Below, in pieces: positions 53,240 through 63,758 of a stretch of DNA of 64,000 bases (position 1 is the first letter of the stretch; each line of letters begins with the position of its first letter). A model generated the notes under the pieces. That model ran no database searches. It saw only the letters and a list, made by a program, of their open reading frames with translations, and was not told the DNA's origin. Source of the stretch: Pseudanabaenaceae cyanobacterium SKYG29 (GTDB taxonomy: Bacteria; Cyanobacteriota; Cyanobacteriia; Pseudanabaenales; Pseudanabaenaceae). The stretch spans positions 124,001 to 188,000 of the forward strand of contig JANWWT010000002.1 in the NCBI GenBank assembly GCA_025055675.1, given 5' to 3'. Both the position numbers and the translations under genes were made by a program.

Positions 53240-54703
53240 TTAACCTAGCACAGGGAAGGGCTGTTTGTGCCAAGGCGTGGACTGTTCGTAGGCATAAGCC
53301 ACCTGTAAAAGTAGGTCCTCTCGCAGGACGTTGGCAATAATTTGTAAACCGATCGGTAACCCTTCTTTGCTGAAGCCACAGGGCAAACTGAGGGCAGGTA
53401 GACCCGCTAAATTGACAGGAATAGTCATCAAATCTGAGAGGTACATACTGAGGGGGTCGTTGGTTTTGCTGCCCGCGGGGAAGGCAGGGGAAGGAGTTGT
53501 AGGACAAATGAGCACATCCACTTGACTAAACGCCCGCTCAAAGTCCTGTTTAATCAATGTCCGCACCTTTTGCGCCTTTAGGTAGTAGGCATCATAGTAG
53601 CCCGCCGATAGGACATAGGTGCCAATCATGATCCGTCGTTTCACCTCTGCCCCAAAGCCCTCATCCCGCGTTTTACCGTACATTTCCAGAAGATTTTTGG
53701 CTTCTGCCCTGAGACCGTATTTCACACCGTCATAGCGCGCCAGGTTAGCCGAAGCTTCCGAAGGAGCAATGATGTAGTAAGTGGCAATCCCGTACTGAAA
53801 GCGCGGGCAAGAAACTTCTTCTACCACTGCCCCCATACTCTCTAGGTGTTTGATGGCTGCCCCGATCGCTTCTGCCACTTCTGGATCGAGGCCCGCCCCC
53901 ATCGTTTCCTTGATCACACCGATTTTTTTCCCTGGCAAAGATTGGGTTAAATCAGGAGTCAACAGACTGGTGTAATCAGGAATAGGCACGTTTAGACTAG
54001 TGGAGTCTTTGGGGTCATGCCCCGCTATCGCCTGCAACAAAAGGGCACAGTCTTCTACGGTACGGGCAAAAGGTCCCACCTGGTCGAGAGAGGAAGCAAA
54101 GGCAATCAGGCCAAATCGGGATACTAGTCCATAGGTAGGTTTTAGCCCAACGACACCGCAAAAGGCGGCGGGTTGACGGATTGACCCCCCCGTGTCGGAA
54201 CCGATGGCAAGGGGAGCTTGGTTACCTCCCACTGCTGCTGCTGATCCCCCCGACGAACCACCAGGCACACATTCTAATTTCCACGGGTTAGCTGTAATGT
54301 GGAAGGCAGAATTTTCCGTGGAACTGCCCATAGCAAATTCATCCAGATTGGTCTTGCCCACCATGACTGTTCCTGCCTGCTGTAATCTAGCTGTCACCGT
54401 GGACTCAAAAGGAGGGACGAAATTTGCCAAAATGCGGGAAGCGCAGGTAGTGGCTATGCCCTGGGTACACAGATTGTCCTTGATGGCGATCGGTACACCC
54501 GCTAGGGGGGAAAGAGTTTCACCTTTGCTGATTTTGCGGTCTACCTGCTGCGCTTGCTCTAGGGCTACTTCTGGCGTAAGGCGGATAAAACTGCGCAACT
54601 GGGGTTCTGAGCGCTGGATATAGTCCAAATACTCTTGGGTGATTTCCACCGCCGATCGTTCTTTCTTATGCAGCCAGGATTGAATTTGCCGAACAGTATA
54701 CAT
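53240..54703 (-). CDS. gatA: Asp-tRNA(Asn)/Glu-tRNA(Gln) amidotransferase subunit A
   Basis: Converts misacylated Glu-tRNA(Gln) or Asp-tRNA(Asn) to the correct amide. The 487 residues have the amidase Ser-cisSer-Lys triad: Lys75 (VPIAIKDN), Ser150 ([12 protein letters not shown]) and Ser174 ([12 protein letters not shown]). The start is ATG at 54703 (MYTVRQIQ); the upstream extension to 54736 is unlikely. The start lies 80 bases from the divergent AsnB-like gene, so both may share a control region. sppA begins 5 bases after its stop. Confidence 0.95.
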
Positions 54704-54782
54704 AGCCCTTTTGTCGCTGGGTTTTAATCTTAGCACGGTTCTTAGAATTTATACTGATGCTTACCCGCAGGCAGAGAAATCT

Positions 54783-56399
54783 ATGGCTATTACACATCCA
54801 GGAAAAAGTTGGTTAGTGGGTTTCGGTCAGGTTAAACCAGAAAATTGTCTATGGCACGATCGGGGGAAGGTGGCTATTTGGGGGTCAGGAAAGGAGATAG
54901 TTTTTTCACCCAATCGTCGTTTTGTGCTAGTGGGAGAGACAACAGGGGAAGTAGGCATTGATGAGATTATCAGGCAGTGGGAAGAGAGAGGGATAGACAG
55001 TTTTAGTAGCAGTAAATCTTTTTTCGCCTTGGTGATTTGGGATTGTCAGGAACAGGTACTTTACTTATGTCGGGATGGCGTAGGCGGCAAAACTTTATAC
55101 TACACTGATGACGGCAAAACCCTGTGGATTGCCCCCCGTCTAAAAACACTATTGCCCTATCACAAACGGGAAATTAATGTAGTGGCATTGAGGGATTACT
55201 TATGTTGTGCTTTTGTCCCTGGTACCCAAACAATGTGGCAGCATGTACAGGAACTATCCCCTGGCACTGTTTTATGTTTACCTAAGCAGGAAATTAAAAT
55301 ATTCTGGCAACCTATCTCTCAAGTTAGCACCAATAAATACCAAGACTTAAACTCCTGTGCTACAGAGTTACTGGAATTACTAACTCAAATAGTCCAGGAA
55401 AAACTACCTAGTCAGACTCCAGTTGGTGTGTTTTTGTCAGGGGGAATAGATTCCAGTGCTGTCACTGCTCTGGCTGCTAAACTGCATAGGGAAAAAGTTA
55501 TCTGCTATTCTATCCATTTCGGCAAGGATTTACCCAATGAGTTGTATTTTTCCAGTCTAGTGGCTAAACATTATGGGTTAGAACATAGGTTACTAGAAAT
55601 TAGTTTTCAGGATATGTGGCAGTATTTGCCAGAGACTATGGCATTACTAGACAACCCGATCGGTGATCCTCTCACTGTCCCCAATCTTTTATTGGCAAAA
55701 CTAGCCCAACAATCTGTCAGTGTGGTATTGAATGGTGAGGGGGGAGACCCCTGTTTTGGTGGACCTAAAAACCAACCTATGCTTCTCAGTCAGGTTTACG
55801 GTGGGAGTTTAGTTAGTTGTTATGCCCGATCGTTTCAAAAATGCTTTGACGATTTACCCCATTTATTGCGACCAGAGATTTGGGCACTGGTAAAAGATGC
55901 TCCCTTCTTTTTTGGGCCCGACCTCAACACAGATATAGAGCTTTTACAGAGATTATTTTTAATCAATATCAAATACAAAGGGGCTAATCATATCCTGACT
56001 AAGGTCAACAATTTACTCAGTGCTGTGGGACTGCAAGGGCGATCACCCATGTTTGACCCACGTATAGTAGATTTTAGTTTGAGTATTCCCGTTGAGTACA
56101 AAGTTTCTGGAGCAGAAGAAAAAACTGTCCTCAAACAAGCTATGGTCAATTTGTTACCACAGGCGATAATTCATCGTCCCAAGAGTGGCATGATGGTACC
56201 AGTCCAACTAGGCTTCCAAAAATACTGGCACAGACAAGCGAAAGATTTGTTGCTGAGAAAAAATGCCGCTATTGCCGAGTATCTAAGACCAGAAGTTATC
56301 CGATCGTGGTTAGACTATAAGGGCGATCCCTGGCGACGCTATGGTATTAAACTATGGCTATTAGTCAGTTTAGAAATCTGGCTACAACAAAATCGCTAA
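54783..56399 (+). CDS. Asparagine-synthetase-like amide ligase without glutaminase Cys (second copy)
   Basis: A 538-residue protein. The C-terminal synthetase domain has the ATP-pyrophosphatase loop SGGIDS (219-224), VVLNGEGGD (317-322) and the late RSPMFDPRIVDFSLSIP block of AsnB. The N-terminal half keeps a degenerate Ntn glutaminase fold (FFALVIWD, DGVGGKTLYYTDDG, LSPGT), but the protein starts MAITHP, so the catalytic Cys2 is missing and Gln hydrolysis is not possible. The start is ATG at 54783; an upstream start at 54711 would not restore Cys2. Its stop directly abuts the stop of the membrane gene on the other strand. Probably a ligase joining a carboxylate to an amine, like beta-lactam synthetase. 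Confidence 0.85.
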   Translation: MAITHPGKSWLVGFGQVKPENCLWHDRGKVAIWGSGKEIVFSPNRRFVLVGETTGEVGIDEIIRQWEERGIDSFSSSKSFFALVIWDCQEQVLYLCRDGVGGKTLYYTDDGKTLWIAPRLKTLLPYHKREINVVALRDYLCCAFVPGTQTMWQHVQELSPGTVLCLPKQEIKIFWQPISQVSTNKYQDLNSCATELLELLTQIVQEKLPSQTPVGVFLSGGIDSSAVTALAAKLHREKVICYSIHFGKDLPNELYFSSLVAKHYGLEHRLLEISFQDMWQYLPETMALLDNPIGDPLTVPNLLLAKLAQQSVSVVLNGEGGDPCFGGPKNQPMLLSQVYGGSLVSCYARSFQKCFDDLPHLLRPEIWALVKDAPFFFGPDLNTDIELLQRLFLINIKYKGANHILTKVNNLLSAVGLQGRSPMFDPRIVDFSLSIPVEYKVSGAEEKTVLKQAMVNLLPQAIIHRPKSGMMVPVQLGFQKYWHRQAKDLLLRKNAAIAEYLRPEVIRSWLDYKGDPWRRYGIKLWLLVSLEIWLQQNR

Positions 56400-57734
56400 T
56401 TAACCAAAAGTTTCGATACCATAAAAATCATCATCCCCGACAATAACTAAATTGCTCTCCCTATCCTCAATACTACCTAACTGGGCACCTAAGTAAATAC
56501 TACGGCTGAGGGTTTGGATAATTCTTTGTGGTGGGAAAAATTCCAACAAAACGTAATTACCTACATCTAACCATTGCAACTCTGCGGGTGACAAACTAGC
56601 CCGAATAGCGGATTCCAAGCGCAACGCTGACCGCATAGATTCCTCACTACTTTGTACCAGAACCGATCGTTTAGCCCCTAAAACCTGCCGCGGGGAAATG
56701 CCCACATCTATGATGAGGTAATCCTGTCCACCAAACCAGTTGGGATCGCGCTTGACTGTGTGGAGAGTCCGCACTCCCTCAGGACTACAATCATGTAAAA
56801 CATACACACCCAATCTGGGGTTGCGCTTCGCCATTGTCATTATTGTTGCAAACAGACTATTGGGATACCCTCCTATACTAACTATGCCGCTGTTGTATTC
56901 AAAATGGAAATTGTTGGCAATCAACATCTTGGCAATATCACTGCTTTGGCAAATCACTAAACGATCGAAGCTATAGTCAGTTACATCAGCTCCTGGTAGG
57001 GGGAAAAAATCATTAAAACTAGCTTTTTCTAATAGTTTTTGCGGGAAGCCATGGGCGTTAGTCCATTTTTCTAACAAAGAATCTAGCAAGTCAGGGGTGA
57101 TAGGCAGAGATGCTTCTATCATGTTAGGTATTCGTCGCACCTGCCAAACTCCTAATCCCACTGCACTCATGCCTACTAGCCAAAATAAAATGGCAAGCAA
57201 AAATTGCTGGAACCAAACGCAAGCTAAACCAAAGAGCATTGAAATTATGCCCAAGTTTTGCAGTGACCGTGCTTGTACAATGCGCTCCCGCCGCAACAGA
57301 TTGAGATTCTGACTCTGCAACCACAAAGATATAAACCAAATTATATTGTAAATCAGTAAAGGTATGAATGGTGCTGCGTTAGACGCATTAGACTCAAAGT
57401 CAGACAAATTGAACAAATTGACTAAAAAAAATGCAAGTAAAACAATAGGAATTAAAAGAAAAATGTAATTAACCCAAAATTGTCCTACATTTCTGATTCC
57501 CACTTTCCTTGCTCTTCTAGCTAAGGTGTAAAATAGCTGTTTCTTTGTAAAATAGAGGGTATTGTTAACTGACAACTCATCTAATAGTTTTTGAAAGGCA
57601 GCATCAGTAAATCGCTGGTTATAAGGCATTGTAGTTGGTTCAAAGGCAAAGGGAGTGCCACAGTTTTTACACCGCCCCTGATGTTCTGTTCTATCTCGTA
57701 AATTATTGTCGGTACCACAGCTAATACATTTCAT
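56400..57734 (-). CDS. Zinc-ribbon multi-pass membrane protein of unknown function
   Basis: A 444-residue protein. The N-terminus is a zinc ribbon (CISCGTDNN at 3-11 and CKNCGTPFAFE at 22-32). Four hydrophobic helices follow (about 92-110, 120-140, 158-175, 178-197). The soluble C-terminal half has two blocks that resemble a Toprim-like alpha/beta fold: YSFDRLVICQSSDIAKMLI, later GVYVLHDCSPEGVRTLH. The Toprim resemblance is weak. The start overlaps the decarboxylase-like stop by 14 bases, so it is the last gene of the leftward operon. I do not recognise it. Confidence 0.75.
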   Translation of the reverse strand: MKCISCGTDNNLRDRTEHQGRCKNCGTPFAFEPTTMPYNQRFTDAAFQKLLDELSVNNTLYFTKKQLFYTLARRARKVGIRNVGQFWVNYIFLLIPIVLLAFFLVNLFNLSDFESNASNAAPFIPLLIYNIIWFISLWLQSQNLNLLRRERIVQARSLQNLGIISMLFGLACVWFQQFLLAILFWLVGMSAVGLGVWQVRRIPNMIEASLPITPDLLDSLLEKWTNAHGFPQKLLEKASFNDFFPLPGADVTDYSFDRLVICQSSDIAKMLIANNFHFEYNSGIVSIGGYPNSLFATIMTMAKRNPRLGVYVLHDCSPEGVRTLHTVKRDPNWFGGQDYLIIDVGISPRQVLGAKRSVLVQSSEESMRSALRLESAIRASLSPAELQWLDVGNYVLLEFFPPQRIIQTLSRSIYLGAQLGSIEDRESNLVIVGDDDFYGIETFG

Positions 57735-58902
57735 AGATTTGCTCCATGTTTTGTTGGTGGGATAACAATACGCTGTAGTCTTCTCGCGATCGCACTAAAA
57801 CATGATCAGTACCTTTGATTAGTACTTCTGCGGGTTTAGGACGATGCAAAAAGTGAGAAGACATAGCATAACCGTAAGCTCCCACATCTAGGATCGCCAA
57901 TCTATCACCAATTTGTAAAGGGGGTAAAGGCATGTTTTTGCCTAAATAATCACGGGAATAGGTGGTGTTGCCGCATACATCTGTAGGTATTTTATAGTCA
58001 CTATCTTTGAGGGCAATAATTTCCCGATAGTCACCATAGACACTAGGAGCTGTTAAGTTGGCGATCGTGGTGTCTACCCCCACAATTTGTTTCTCTCCCT
58101 GATACTTAACTGACACAACTGTAGTTAGTAAAACCCCACAGCCAGCTACTACGTTCCTTCCTGGCTCTAATATTAGTTGTATACCAGTACCTGCTAGAGA
58201 TTGTGTTAGTGCTTCGCCAAACTCTTGCCAGTCAAATTCTACTTTGCCATGGCGATAGGGGTAACCAAATCCGCCGCCAAAATCCAAGTATTGCCAGTCA
58301 GGAAGTGTTCTGCCAATTGCTAATAGCTGATCAATAACTGCTGTAAAGGCTTTAGTAGCGTTTGTCCCTGTACCGCGATAAAAATGTAAGCCCTGAATTT
58401 GGCGGTTGTATTTATTAGCAACTGCTATAGCGTGCGGAAATTCCTGGGGTTGGATACCAATACGACTTTCCCCAGTGATTTGGGGTTCATTTAATCGCAA
58501 CCCTAGTTTTAGGTGGCTAATACCTTTAGCAATTTCACACAATTGTTGTACTTGAGTTATGCTATCTAGGTTGAAAGTAGTGACCCCCCAAGCTAGGACC
58601 TGTTCCATATCATTTATGCTCAGATTGCTGCCACTGTAAACTATTTGGCAGGGCGGAAAACCAGCTTTTAGGGCTAGATAAATGTCCCCTGGTGTATTGG
58701 CGTGAATGTGCCAACCTGCTCGTCTTACTATCTGTAAAAGAGCTAAATTACCATTGGTCACAACGGCAAAACAAAAAGTGGTGGGTCTGTACTTAACTTG
58801 TTGGGGAATCTGTTGCAAGGCTTGCCAAAACCGATCGGCATCATAGACATACAAAGGGGAACCATAAACTTCTAAGAGTTTGTCCCACAGTTTAATACTC
58901 AT
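57721..58902 (-). CDS. Alanine-racemase-fold decarboxylase homologue lacking the PLP lysine
   Basis: A 393-residue protein of the LysA/ornithine-decarboxylase (fold-type III) family. The start is ATG at 58902 with GGAGGAAT just upstream. The fold is clear: GGGFGYPY (209-216), EPGR (246-249), GAYGYAMSS (341-349) and RPKPAEVLI (354-362). But where the family has the Schiff-base Lys (consensus AxKxN) it reads FAVVTN with Val48, the PLP-contacting His is Tyr175 (GLHFYRG) and the partner-subunit Cys is replaced by Thr at about 314 (TTYSRD). It is thus unlikely to use PLP as relatives do. It overlaps the AsnB-like gene upstream by 11 bases and the membrane gene by 14. Confidence 0.88.
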   Translation of the reverse strand: MSIKLWDKLLEVYGSPLYVYDADRFWQALQQIPQQVKYRPTTFCFAVVTNGNLALLQIVRRAGWHIHANTPGDIYLALKAGFPPCQIVYSGSNLSINDMEQVLAWGVTTFNLDSITQVQQLCEIAKGISHLKLGLRLNEPQITGESRIGIQPQEFPHAIAVANKYNRQIQGLHFYRGTGTNATKAFTAVIDQLLAIGRTLPDWQYLDFGGGFGYPYRHGKVEFDWQEFGEALTQSLAGTGIQLILEPGRNVVAGCGVLLTTVVSVKYQGEKQIVGVDTTIANLTAPSVYGDYREIIALKDSDYKIPTDVCGNTTYSRDYLGKNMPLPPLQIGDRLAILDVGAYGYAMSSHFLHRPKPAEVLIKGTDHVLVRSREDYSVLLSHQQNMEQIYEMY

Positions 58903-60556
58903 TTCTATTCCTCCAGTAGGAATACAAACCTGTTTTCGTCCAAAACCAATAGGGTAATAAAAATGGATGTCGCCAGGATGTTTCACAGGGGTAATTCTGC
59001 AGTTGGGAACGCCAAAATTGCCATGCCAGTAACAGCCACAAAATTTCTCCCACGCGGCGCTTGCGTAATACACTCCCCAACCTACCAAATGCTACTTTGG
59101 CTGCTAAATCTGCTTGCCATAGGCCCTCTCTGGCTAGAACTTGCGGATTTAACCATTTGCCGAGGTCGTGCCACAAAGGTTGTAAACACCACTGGGTTAA
59201 TGGTACGCCCATGCCCCGTTTGTCCCGCCACACTACTTCTGGGGGTAGCCACAGTTCCACCGCCCGCTTCAAAATATACTTCTCACAGGCTCCCCTGAGA
59301 AAGAGGTCAGAGTGGACAGTAAATGTCCATCTAGCTAGGTTTTCATCGCAAAAGGGTGATCTGAGCTTGATTCCTTGGTATAAGGCTAAATTGCTGGCGC
59401 GGGGATGGATGTTTTGTGCCCCCTTGAGCATGAGGGTCGCCCGCCGTAGCCTTGCTAGTAGTGAACCCCTCCCTGCCAAAGCTGCTGTCAACCAAGTACC
59501 TGGCTGCCAATCCTGCACACATTGCCAAAACTGCGGTGTGAACACTTCTGCCTCATACCCCCATAGGCGATGAAAGGTCTGTAGGTATTGCGCTGTAAAA
59601 TCGATCGCGGGTTGTCGATAGAGGGAAGCAGCGATTATGGGTTTGTTTGTCCAGCCGGCAAATAGTTGATCTCCTCCCTCACCATTGAATATGACATCAC
59701 ACTCTTGTCTCGCTGCTTGATAGAGCAACCATAACGGCACACATACGCCATCACCGAAGGGCAGGTCTAAAGCTAGGGCTGTCTCTAAGACCGATCGTTT
59801 TACTCTCTGGGGGGAACACTCCACTTTCACTAGGGGAATGTCCAAATGTCGTGCCACCAGTTCGGCGTAGGGTAGTTCAGATATGCCGTATTGCCCAAAG
59901 TCGAGGGTGTAAGCACGTACTCGTATGCCCGATCGTTTCAACAAGGCGGCAACAGTGGCAGAATCTAGCCCCCCCGACAAGAATATGCCAACGGTCTGAC
60001 CCTGCAGGTCATCTACTTGCTGGGCAACGGCTGCGGTGAGTAAAAACTGTAGTTTCTGTACGGCTGTCCCTTCATCAGTAAGCAGTTCTGTCTGTTCCTG
60101 CCAGTCCTCGAGGATGGGGTCAGTAGCTTTGGTAATTAAATTTTCCCCCTCCCAGGTGTATCGCCAGCCTGCCTCGATCGCTTTAATGCCTTTGTAAGGG
60201 GTGAGAGGCGTGGGTACATAGGAAAAACAGGCGTAGCCATAAACCGCCAGGGGGTCAATTTCCTGCTCTACTAGGGGTAGCAGCCACCGCCAACGGGTAG
60301 CAAACCATAAACCCTGCTCTGTCTGGCACCAATAGAGCGTTACTCGCCCAAAGGGATGTCTGCCTAAAGTAAGGGTGTCGTCCTTTTCCTCTGCCCAGGC
60401 ATCTCCTCCCTGGTTGACAATGCCTCTGCCTGCCTCTATGCCAACTTGTTGACTAGTGATCTGTTGCCAAGGTACTTGGGAGTTTTGCGAAATTAAGTGT
60501 GTCAAGTCACCCCGCCAACTGCCAATGAAGCCAAACTGGGTAACTGCAATTTGCAT
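58892..60556 (-). CDS. Asparagine-synthetase-like amide ligase without glutaminase Cys (first copy)
   Basis: A 554-residue AsnB-like protein. SGGLDS (194-199) is the ATP-pyrophosphatase loop; NGEGGD (291-296) matches the copy at 54783 and differs from the SGDGGDE of ordinary AsnB. LRSPFCDENLARW and KYILKRAVELWLPPEVVWRDK fit the synthetase end. The N-terminus starts MQIAVTQFG without Cys2 and has only a reduced glutaminase-like part, so it should use a free amine or another nucleophile. The ATG overlaps the upstream stop in TAATG; the stop overlaps the decarboxylase-like start. A cytosolic ligase is likely. Confidence 0.86.
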   Translation of the reverse strand: MQIAVTQFGFIGSWRGDLTHLISQNSQVPWQQITSQQVGIEAGRGIVNQGGDAWAEEKDDTLTLGRHPFGRVTLYWCQTEQGLWFATRWRWLLPLVEQEIDPLAVYGYACFSYVPTPLTPYKGIKAIEAGWRYTWEGENLITKATDPILEDWQEQTELLTDEGTAVQKLQFLLTAAVAQQVDDLQGQTVGIFLSGGLDSATVAALLKRSGIRVRAYTLDFGQYGISELPYAELVARHLDIPLVKVECSPQRVKRSVLETALALDLPFGDGVCVPLWLLYQAARQECDVIFNGEGGDQLFAGWTNKPIIAASLYRQPAIDFTAQYLQTFHRLWGYEAEVFTPQFWQCVQDWQPGTWLTAALAGRGSLLARLRRATLMLKGAQNIHPRASNLALYQGIKLRSPFCDENLARWTFTVHSDLFLRGACEKYILKRAVELWLPPEVVWRDKRGMGVPLTQWCLQPLWHDLGKWLNPQVLAREGLWQADLAAKVAFGRLGSVLRKRRVGEILWLLLAWQFWRSQLQNYPCETSWRHPFLLPYWFWTKTGLYSYWRNRNEY

Positions 60557-61173
60557 TACCTCACTTCAAACGTGGAACTAGATACTTCTCTCCCCTTTAC
60601 GTACATCTTGACTCGCCAGATACCAGGACTATCGGAGGTACTCAGCTGATATTTGCATTGGGTGTTCCAAATACTCTTGTTGACTTCCTTGGTCTGGTAA
60701 CGGTTTTGGTGCACTACTGTCCCCTGGGGATTCAACCAGTCACAGCCCATGGGTAGCTTCTGCCCGATCGGGGCGTTTGTCAAGGTCACTCGATAGACTA
60801 CCTCGTTGGGGCGATTCACTACCTGCACAGCTTGGTCTTTATTACTCCCAATCGTCACCCTACTGGCTTGACTGCTGACGTTAGCAATAGCGGCTTCCTG
60901 CCCTCGACGGAATAAAAACGTACCGCCAATCCCTATTCCCACAACTAATAGGGCACCCACGATTACCAGAAAATTAACTAGGGTCTGGCTCTTTTGGGCT
61001 TCCCTGCGCTTGACTTGTAAAATTGCCTCCTCTAACAGTTCATCGGGTAAGTTCATGTCCCGCAGGATTTCCCTGGCTTGGTCTACGGTGATACTCCCCT
61101 CCCGCTGACTAGAAATTTTTTGAATTTCGGCGATCACCTGGTTGAGCTGCTGGGGGTCAATATATTCCGCCAT
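60556..61173 (-). CDS. DUF3859-like single-pass membrane protein
   Basis: A 205-residue protein. A cytoplasmic helical N-terminus (about 1-60) is followed by one membrane helix (LVNFLVIVGALLVVGIGIGG, about 66-85) and an extracytoplasmic Ig-like beta domain with VVYRVTLTNAPIGQKLPM and GIWRVKMYVKGREV (about 105-205) containing two cysteines that could pair (CDW, QCKYQL). The C-terminal domain resembles DUF3859. It is the first gene of the four-gene operon and shares TAATG with the AsnB-like gene. The acnB stop is 60 bases upstream. Confidence 0.72.
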   Translation of the reverse strand: MAEYIDPQQLNQVIAEIQKISSQREGSITVDQAREILRDMNLPDELLEEAILQVKRREAQKSQTLVNFLVIVGALLVVGIGIGGTFLFRRGQEAAIANVSSQASRVTIGSNKDQAVQVVNRPNEVVYRVTLTNAPIGQKLPMGCDWLNPQGTVVHQNRYQTKEVNKSIWNTQCKYQLSTSDSPGIWRVKMYVKGREVSSSTFEVR

Positions 61174-61232
61174 CCCTCTCTCCTGGAACCCTACCTAAAT
61201 GGTACCAGTTGGCAGCTCCTTCTCACCAAAGT

Positions 61233-63758
61233 TTAGGCATATTGGGGCATCCGATCGAACTGTAGATAGCGATATAACTCCTTGGCAAAGGGATCGATTT
61301 TAGCAGTCACGATCGAGCGATACTCTTCCACAGTAGGAATCCGCCCCAGGAGAGCACAGACTGCCGCTAGTTCTGCCGACCCCAGGTACACCCGGGCATC
61401 TTTCCCCATGCGGTTATTAAAATTGCGGGTAGAGGTGGAAAATACAGTTGTCCCATCCCCCACGCGGGCTTGATTGCCCATACAGAGAGAACAACCTGGC
61501 ATTTCTGTCCTAGCTCCCGCTGCTGCAAAGATGCCGTAGACCCCTTCTTCCCGCAGTTGCTCTTCATCCATCCTGGTGGGGGGGGCAATCCACAGACGCA
61601 CTTTCACCTGCCCTGCTCCCTCTAGCACCTTAGCCGCGGCTCGATAGTGCCCAATGTTGGTCATGCAGGAACCAATAAACACTTCATCAATGCGATCCCC
61701 CGCTACTTCTGAAAGCAATTTCACATTGTCAGGGTCGTTGGGGGCAGCCACGATCGGTTCAGTAATTTCATTTAGATTGATGTCGATCGTTGCCACATAT
61801 TCCGCATCGGGGTCAGGTTGGAGCAGTTGGGGATTTTCCAGCCAGGCTTCCATCTTTTGGATACGACGGAGCAGAGTACGACTATCCTGGTAGCCTTGGG
61901 CAATCATATGTTTGAGCAGGGCAATGTTGGAGCGCAAATACTCACTTACTGTTTCTTTACTCAGCAAAATGGTACAACCAGCACAGGAGCGTTCTGCGGT
62001 GGCATCAGTCAACTCAAAAGCCTGTTCTAACTGTAGATCGGGGAGTCCTTCCATCTCCATAATCCGACCAGCAAAAATATTCTTTTTATTTTGCTTTTCT
62101 ACAGTGAGCAGCCCTTTTTGGATGGCAACGTAGGGAATAGCATGGACAATATCCCGCAGAGTTACCCCTGGTTGCAATTCCCCTATAAACCGCACCCGTA
62201 CGGATTCTGGCATGTTCAAAGGCATAACCCCCAAAGCTGCTGCCAATGCCACCAACCCCGATCCGGCTGGGAAAGAAATCCCCAACGGAAACCGTGTGTG
62301 GGAATCACCCCCTGTGCCCACTGTGTCTGGTAGTAACATCCGATTGAGCCAGGAATGGATAATGCCATCTCCTACCCGTAAAACCACACCGCCTCTGGTA
62401 GCAAAAAAATCAGGTAACTCCTTGTGTACTTTGATGTCAGCAGGTTTGGGATAAGCCGCTGTATGACAGAAAGTTTGCAAAACTAAATCCGCATTGAAGC
62501 CTAGACAAGCTAGTTCCTTCAACTCGTCCCTGGTCATCGGTCCCGTCGTGTCTTGGGAACCAACAGTAGTAATGATCGGCTCACAGTAAGTGCCAGGACG
62601 TACTCCTGGTAAGCCGCAAGCCCTGCCCACCATCTTCTGTGCCAAGGTAAAACCTTTACCTGTATCTTGGGGAGGACGGGGACGGATGAATAATTCACTG
62701 GGGGGTAATCCCATAACCTCCCGCGCCCGATCGGTCAAGCCTCTGCCAATCATCAAATTGATCCTGCCCCCAGCTCTTACTTCATCACTGATAGTTTCTG
62801 GCTTCAACTGAAACCTGCTAATTACTTCCCCCCGATCGTTTTCGATTTCTCCGCGATAGGGATAGATGTGAATGACATCCCCCGTCTGCATTTTAGTTAC
62901 ATCGCACTCAATGGGCAGTGCTCCTGCATCCTCAGCCGTATTGAAGAAAATAGGAGCGATCGTGCCACCTAAAATCACGCCGCCGCTGCGCTTATTGGGG
63001 ATATAGGGAATGTCATTACCAATGTGCCACAGGAGAGAATTAATTGCTGACTTACGCGAGGAGCCTGTACCAACCACGTCTCCCACAAAAGCAACGGGAT
63101 AACCCTTCTGTTTCAACTCCGCAATGGTCTGAAGAGCACCAGGGGCACGGGACTCCAACATGTAAAGAGCGTGCAAGGGAATATCAGGACGGGAAACTGC
63201 CTGGGGAGCAGGAGATAGGTCATCAGTGTTAATTTCCCCTGCTACTTTGAATACCGTTACCGTCAGTTTCTCTGCTAGGGGAGGACGATCGGTAAACCAC
63301 TCTCCCTCTGCCCAGGACTGCAAAACAGCACGGGCATTGGTATTGGTCTGTGCTAACTCCACCACTTGGTGAAAACTATCAAATACCAGCAGAATCCTGG
63401 ATAGGGCACGTGCCGCTCTTGTCCCCAAATGGACATCCTCCAGCAACTCAATCAAGGGCTGGACATTGTAACCGCCTACCATCGTGCCCAGCAAATCTAC
63501 TGCCAACTCTGGGGAAACGATCGGGGAGACCACTTCTCCCTTAGCCACTGCCGCCAAAAAACCCGCCTTCACATAGGCTGCCTGATCCACACCAGGTGGT
63601 ACACGCTCTTGCAACAGATAGAGGAGATATTCTGCTTCCCCAGGAGGAGGGCTTTGCAGTAATTCACACAACTGGGACGTTTGTTCTGGTGTTAGGGGCA
63701 GGGGCGGAATACCCAAGAGCGATCGTTGGGCAACCTGTTCGCGGTAGGCAGTTAACAT
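61233..63758 (-). CDS. acnB: Aconitate hydratase B / 2-methylisocitrate dehydratase
   Basis: A TCA-cycle enzyme interconverting citrate and isocitrate with a 4Fe-4S cluster. The 841 residues start with the HEAT-like domain ([22 protein letters not shown]), typical of AcnB rather than AcnA. The swivel domain comes before the cluster domain, with [14 protein letters not shown]; cluster cysteines are in the SCMTNIG and [11 protein letters not shown] blocks. Complete. A palindrome (63796-63817) lies 38 bases upstream of the start and may be an operator. Confidence 0.95.

Follow-up and report, generated by a model that had tools for sequence, protein, structure and literature searches.

Positions 54783 to 61173 of a 64,000-nt stretch of DNA from the Pseudanabaenaceae cyanobacterium SKYG29 (the whole stretch is hereafter called the window) hold five genes, encoding two ligases of the asparagine synthetase B (AsnB) family, A1 and A2, a relative of the decarboxylase LysA, LysL, a zinc-ribbon/Toprim membrane protein, ZnT, and a second membrane protein, Mem205. 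We consider it near certain that these genes constitute a real functional unit that is inherited as a package. From the sequences we tentatively favor, with less than even confidence, a reading in which A1 and A2 would act as ATP-dependent amide ligases at the C-terminal tail of ZnT and LysL as a non-catalytic ligand binder, in a self-contained mobile module. The coordinates of the open reading frames (ORFs) and the DNA of the locus were re-read, with the following outcome:

A1: 54783..56399, plus strand, 538 aa with ATG at 54783; predicted AsnB-family ATP-dependent amide ligase without Cys2, in which the SGGIDSS loop, GEGGD, the catalytic-Lys motif RPKSGM and the shared KGA motif are all kept.
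ZnT: 56400..57734, minus strand, 444 aa; predicted zinc-ribbon/Toprim protein with an N-terminal CxxC..CxxC, about four transmembrane helices, a Top6A/Spo11-like Toprim domain at approximately residues 250-330, a variable acidic linker and a C-terminal -FG.
ZnT C-terminal tail codons: 56400..56423, minus strand; Y-G-I-E-T-F-G-stop, the only site in the window's whole genome that matches TAYNNNNNNGANNNNTTYGGNTRR.
LysL: 57721..58902, minus strand, 393 aa with ATG at 58902; predicted LysA-fold protein without the pyridoxal phosphate (PLP) lysine, which is replaced by V, the PLP-stacking His by Y and the catalytic Cys by T, with GGGFG, EPGR and GAYG kept.
A2: 58892..60556, minus strand, 554 aa; second predicted AsnB-family ATP-dependent amide ligase without Cys2, with SGGLDS, GEGGD, KRGMGVP and KGA kept.
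Mem205: 60556..61173, minus strand, 205 aa; predicted to have a cytosolic helical N-terminus, one transmembrane helix and a periplasmic Ig-like domain, which is MG2/DUF3859-like and holds two conserved Cys.

Mem205 and A2 overlap by 1 base, A2 and LysL by 11 bases and LysL and ZnT by 14 bases, and the convergent ZnT and A1 touch stop-to-stop with zero gap; on all of these junctions the first-pass annotation was exact to the base. PF00733 is matched by A1 (E 9e-68) and A2 (E 2e-53), LysL matches both Orn/DAP/Arg decarboxylase domains, and the membrane proteins Mem205 and ZnT belong to no curated family. Compared with G002, the nearest carrier of the same genus, each of the five genes has a ratio of nonsynonymous to synonymous substitution rates (dN/dS) of 0.09-0.13; they are therefore under purifying selection and functional. 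This ratio of about 0.1, a gene order that recurs in about 40 other cyanobacterial loci and a near-perfect co-occurrence together argue against a chance neighborhood.

LysL is present in 48 of 390 species of the class Cyanobacteriia (29 of 160 genera), patchily within genera, with carriers representing ~12%, or about one in eight, of the sampled cyanobacterial species. Its orthologues share 55-83% identity over the aligned parts and are clearly separate from ordinary LysA, at ~30%. As 44 loci around LysL were read for gene order, the arrangement Mem205-A2-LysL-ZnT-A1, with A1 convergent, was found to recur across many families with one to three copies of ZnT, so the neighborhood survey across cyanobacteria that had been proposed alongside the first-pass annotation returns a recognizable set. 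Where ZnT is duplicated, in two to three tandem copies (loci L075, L076, L085, L091 and L101), every copy keeps the -FG end despite divergence.

Co-occurrence was assessed in a panel of 76 genomes, 22 with LysL and 54 without. ZnT and A2 were each recovered in all 22 carriers and in no non-carrier, Mem205 in 21 versus 0 and A1 in 21 versus 1, the lone non-carrier with A1 (G057) having a broken copy in two pieces. These pieces (C1:4004000-4012000) lie about 1 kb apart and are 81% and 94% identical to A1 of G246; with the other four genes absent, G057 probably reflects a recent loss. The sole carrier without A1 and Mem205 is G331, in which A2 and LysL are fused by deletion; this in-frame fusion (C191), with A1 and Mem205 not found, represents either a decaying copy or an assembly artefact. 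Presence is all-or-none in mixed genera as well, namely the window's own (G001 without, G002 with) and those of G017, G125, G067, G044, G194 and G212, where the tested non-carriers lack all five genes. A1 is moreover retained though unlinked in many genomes (18 such regions were examined), including G002, where A1 has gatA as its neighbor, just as in the window, and the other four genes adjoin acnB on a separate contig. Compared with positions 54700-61240 of the window, the rearrangement breakpoint in G002 falls exactly at the A1/ZnT junction.

The pairwise distances of the five proteins correlate with r of 0.78-0.93, to which shared species history contributes. The recurring gene order, the nearly perfect co-occurrence and the persistence of unlinked A1 thus bear out the earlier proposal of one system; some scattering is seen, yet the genes are kept and lost together rather than varying individually. 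Clustering of the other ORFs of at least 50 aa around the loci, with those below 50 aa not clustered, yielded no further shared gene, and no precursor ORF of at least 50 aa is conserved beside the five genes. The neighbors of unlinked A1 have only lineage-specific genes in common, and the search of viral contigs gave no match to the set.

The package also appears to be horizontally mobile, an aspect absent from the first-pass annotation. All five genes (CYAN7822_RS31775, 31770, 31765, 31760 and 31755) are carried by plasmid Cy782202 of Gloeothece verrucosa PCC 7822, which is typed conjugative. Furthermore, the window's LysL is closer to that of G125, from another family (79% identity), than to that of G017, from the same family (74%), and for the neighboring aconitase gene G125 (76%) is no closer than other cyanobacteria (72-78%). 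The closeness of LysL to G125 without a matching closeness of aconitase therefore supports horizontal transfer.

LysL residues were placed by HMMER alignment to solved LysA structures. The site of the PLP lysine is Val in LysL (FAVVTN versus YAVKAN), that of the stacking His is Tyr (HFYRGT versus HCHIGS) and the catalytic Cys-Glu site is Thr-Tyr (GNTTYSRD versus GPICETGD), all three substitutions occurring in 45 of 45 orthologues. The equivalents of the LysA substrate site are likewise lost, with Glu changed to Tyr and Arg to a small residue, and LysL scores 254.6 bits against TIGR01048, below the cut-off of 297.9. Membership of LysA, the diaminopimelate decarboxylases, was rejected on the change of the PLP lysine to Val, even as the PLP cradle is kept (EPGR and GAYG in 45/45, GGGFG invariant in 35). 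The new pocket residues are almost invariant (VTNGN, HANTPGD, RGTGTNAT and CGNTTYSRD), so that the pocket is under strong selection yet unable to carry out normal PLP-lysine chemistry. The window's genome separately encodes a normal LysA, with the lysine (YASKAW) and the CESGD motif in place. Its residues rule out normal PLP decarboxylase activity for LysL, which lends strong support to its earlier description as a probably non-catalytic homologue.

A1 and A2 keep the machinery for ATP-dependent carboxylate activation without the glutaminase nucleophile. The Met-Cys start, present in five canonical AsnB-family comparators with annotated starts, is absent from both, and only the second half of GATase_7 is matched, the first half of the glutaminase domain being missing. 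The PP-loop SGGxDS and the catalytic Lys of the RxK motif are kept in both families nearly without exception; a glutamine-hydrolyzing AsnB was nonetheless rejected on the missing Cys2 nucleophile. The first-pass annotation had likened the pair to Cys-less ligases such as beta-lactam synthetase and lasso-peptide cyclases. The absence of glutaminase function stands, but LTGYGSD of CarA aligns to LNGEGGD of A1 (FNGEGGD in A2), with Glu in place of the Tyr of the Tyr-Glu dyad in beta-lactam and carbapenam synthetase, and assignment to these synthetases was rejected on that missing Tyr. The likeness to lasso cyclases does not hold either: scores against the NF033535 model are 148 and 42 bits versus a cut-off of 525, and no lasso partner gene (B1/B2) or precursor was found near the set, among conserved neighbors of at least 50 aa.

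The KGA motif is common to A1, A2 and a Streptomyces relative of A1, and absent from the comparators of AsnB and of the amidotransferase for N-acetylglutaminylglutamine amide (NAGGN). A tree of 34 sequences separates A2 from a group that unites A1 with the Streptomyces protein, both being well supported; as the root is not settled by this tree, neither is the relation between A1 and A2. The closest solved relative is 7ylz, a natural-product hydroxyamidotransferase. The window's genome contains no full-length AsnB-family (PF00733) protein besides A1 and A2, and no canonical asparagine synthetase B was found in it.

ZnT combines four zinc-ribbon Cys, two to four hydrophobic helices and a Toprim-like domain; neither this domain nor the -FG tail figures in the first-pass annotation. 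The Top6A/Spo11 Toprim domain (PF21180) is matched weakly by 36 of 37 ZnT proteins (best E 7e-7), the window's ZnT alone giving E 0.05, below the curated cut-off, and the domain holds GYP and HDxxPxG motifs. In cyanobacterial ZnT the Toprim Glu appears to be replaced by Cys or Gln and DxD by DxS, as judged by eye from the alignments. The linker that comes next is variable, with abundant Asp, Ser and Gly and hardly any Lys. The C-terminus is -FG in 48 of 48 complete ZnT proteins, with position -4 acidic in 44 and position -7 aromatic in 41, in contrast to ~10-25% pairwise identity at positions -13 to -45. Unlinked copies in G206 and G235 end in ESFG, and the copy on the Gloeothece plasmid has the same tail end; an apparent tail near A1 in G171 was discarded, as it is out of frame and inside an NADH dehydrogenase subunit gene. 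This motif looks like a recognition, carrier or modification tail. Transmembrane counts are mostly even (4 or 2, from rough hydropathy), which puts tail and zinc ribbon on one side of the membrane. Neither a profile search of the PDB with ZnT nor a comparison with the LysW profile gave a match.

Mem205 has one transmembrane helix in all 40 members and two invariant Cys. Its model is good only in the periplasmic beta-sandwich (predicted local distance difference test scores mostly 74-91), which matches Ig-like folds including PA1606 and agrees with the MG2/DUF3859 profile matches. The DUF3859-like label given earlier is weak yet real for the family as a whole: 11 of 31 members match at E<0.1, the best at 8.8e-6.

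Co-inheritance, the pattern of residues lost and retained and the invariance of the tail are direct observations, to which our preferred reading, an ATP-dependent amide-forming complex at the membrane, adds an inferred substrate, product and role of LysL. A1 and A2 would activate a carboxylate by adenylation and couple it to ammonia or an amine. Their dedicated substrate may be the ZnT tail, most likely its C-terminal Gly carboxylate, cytosolic and near the membrane, such that ZnT would serve as a carrier for assembly of a small product or as a protein that is amidated or conjugated at its end. LysL, translationally coupled to A2, may bind a PLP- or amino-acid-like ligand as a partner or regulator of A2, and Mem205 would link the whole assembly to the periplasm. 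There is precedent for AsnB-like enzymes working at the C-termini of peptides, namely TsrC, ScdTA and PesC (PMC13060819). A carrier- or conjugation-type version, in which the invariant -Phe-Gly end of membrane-anchored ZnT is conjugated, or loaded with an amine, by the paired glutaminase-less enzymes in a manner unlike described systems, the lysine-less PLP-fold LysL assisting as ligand carrier or chaperone, we regard as rather doubtful.

Several observations weigh against action on the ZnT tail. The invariant -FG could instead be a docking peptide, a degron or a structural end. The acidic residue at -4 is missing in 4 of 48 ZnT proteins, and side-chain chemistry at this position is therefore less likely; transmembrane counts are odd in 14 of 48 by the same crude method. 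AlphaFold models of ZnT (three sequences) were poor and unusable, so that its domain assignments rest on sequence. Finally, a plasmid of Streptomyces sp. NBC_01237 (NZ_CP108509.1, ~1088945-1094623) holds three overlapping ZnT relatives directly followed by an A1 relative of ~41-43% identity, tying A1 to ZnT outside cyanobacteria, yet the tails of these ZnT relatives share GF(L/M)(T/S)WP and have no -FG (one ends in GFLSWPAS, two carry longer extensions), so that a free C-terminal Gly is not universal. They contain HDAD or HDAS motifs and DxD is kept in two, and LysL, Mem205 and a second AsnB-like gene were not detected in 45 kb of the plasmid. A cupin gene and an aldehyde dehydrogenase gene border the locus, which represents a separate, unannotated actinobacterial version.

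Biosynthesis of a free metabolite with the tail as a docking element is nearly as likely as a tail that serves as substrate. Here A1 and A2 would form two amide bonds in a small molecule or peptide, such as an amidated dipeptide osmolyte like NAGGN, with LysL as accessory subunit and the -FG of ZnT merely docking the enzymes at the membrane; taken by itself we deem this possible, if somewhat unlikely. Two ligases suit two successive bonds, and A1 scores 187 bits with the NAGGN amidotransferase model and 234 bits with that of the XrtA-associated amidotransferase TIGR03108, its best NCBIfam match; the nearest solved structure is 7ylz. On the other hand, no gene for a transporter, an acetyltransferase, a peptide precursor or a tailoring enzyme recurs next to the set, and a tail more strictly conserved than the rest of ZnT is left unexplained. 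NAGGN clusters moreover need glutamine-dependent Cys2 enzymes and ngg, as in the Azospirillum locus, where a Cys2 amidotransferase and the ngg synthetase adjoin; the set has neither, and was rejected as such an osmolyte cluster.

That the set is a regulatory or sensory membrane complex of former enzymes, with LysL sensing an amino acid or B6 vitamer, the Toprim metal site lost and A1/A2 sensing or signaling via ATP instead of forming a product, is improbable. It would account for the lost catalytic residues of LysL, the apparent replacement of the Toprim Glu and second Asp in cyanobacterial ZnT and the reduced glutaminase half of A1 and A2, but the near-universal ATP loop and catalytic Lys argue for turnover, and the set is devoid of DNA-binding or signaling domains. 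More improbable still is a modification of the cell envelope through a diaminopimelate-related amide in peptidoglycan or a lipid precursor. A LysA fold next to AsnB-type enzymes and two membrane proteins would be in line with it, AsnB and LtsA amidate meso-diaminopimelate elsewhere, and amidation of cyanobacterial peptidoglycan has been reported (PMC11189452), yet the meso-diaminopimelate amidotransferases are glutamine-dependent, LysL has lost the LysA substrate-site residues and a core wall modification would not be expected to occur so patchily. An anti-phage or plasmid-related defense island with the Top6A-like Toprim domain as effector is highly unlikely, for patchiness, mobility, residence on a conjugative plasmid and the occurrence of Toprim and Topo VI-A-like domains in defense systems are countered by the absence of any PADLOC match save a QueC-like PP-loop similarity, of conserved defense neighbors and of viral-contig matches, and by an apparent loss of the nuclease site in cyanobacterial ZnT.

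No family tested (AsnB, beta-lactam synthetase, lasso cyclase, LysA, exosortase cluster, NAGGN) fits the set in full, and no described system matches the gene combination in the open-access papers and family libraries searched, a description elsewhere being possible; an expression paper on Cyanothece 7822 does not discuss the five genes by name. The enzymes TsrC, ScdTA and PesC, which work on the C-termini of ribosomally synthesized and post-translationally modified peptides (PMC13060819), share the asparagine synthetase family, ATP-dependent carboxylate activation and a proposed dedicated peptide tail, whereas our set lacks a short precursor peptide and a protease, has a membrane protein as candidate substrate, and comprises two ligases with Cys2 lost and a LysA-fold partner. 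Beta-lactam and carbapenam synthetase (1jgt, 1q15) similarly combine the AsnB fold, ATP-dependent amide formation and no working glutaminase, but differ by GYGSD, GEGGD having Glu for the Tyr, and the set has no clavam or carbapenam genes. The exosortase-A pair TIGR03108 (amidotransferase) and TIGR03099 (decarboxylase) likewise places an AsnB-family and a LysA-family gene in one cluster, with scores of the set (234/817 and 108/478) far under cut-off. A link to exosortase-A (XrtA/PEP-CTERM) was rejected as no association was found over 62 genomes, exosortase being absent from the carriers G000 (the window's genome), G002 and G017 and common in non-carriers. Butirosin BtrK (2j66, 7ru7) pairs a LysA fold and a carrier-bound amino acid with an ATP-dependent ligase, resembling the set with its possible carrier, but is a PLP decarboxylase; LysL has no PLP lysine and the set no acyl carrier protein. 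The amino-group carrier LysW/ArgW has a zinc ribbon and an invariant -EDWGE tail with amide chemistry, served by an ATP-grasp ligase, and so shares the zinc ribbon and the invariant C-terminal tail, whereas ZnT is large, membrane-bound, ends in -FG and is accompanied by AsnB ligases. Topo VI A/Spo11 Toprim domains, finally, share the weak match in 36/37 ZnT with GYP and HDxxPxG, but cyanobacterial ZnT is membrane-anchored and has apparently lost the metal-binding Glu and second Asp.

The presence of the whole set on the plasmid of Gloeothece verrucosa PCC 7822 renders the question testable. In a well-studied phylum, a well-bounded, mobile and strongly conserved set carries no annotation beyond 'asparagine synthetase', 'decarboxylase' and 'hypothetical'. 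If A1 and A2 act on the ZnT tail, this would represent a new type of chemistry at protein C-termini for the AsnB family; otherwise the set would still define a new pathway, one with a PLP fold that does without PLP-lysine chemistry.

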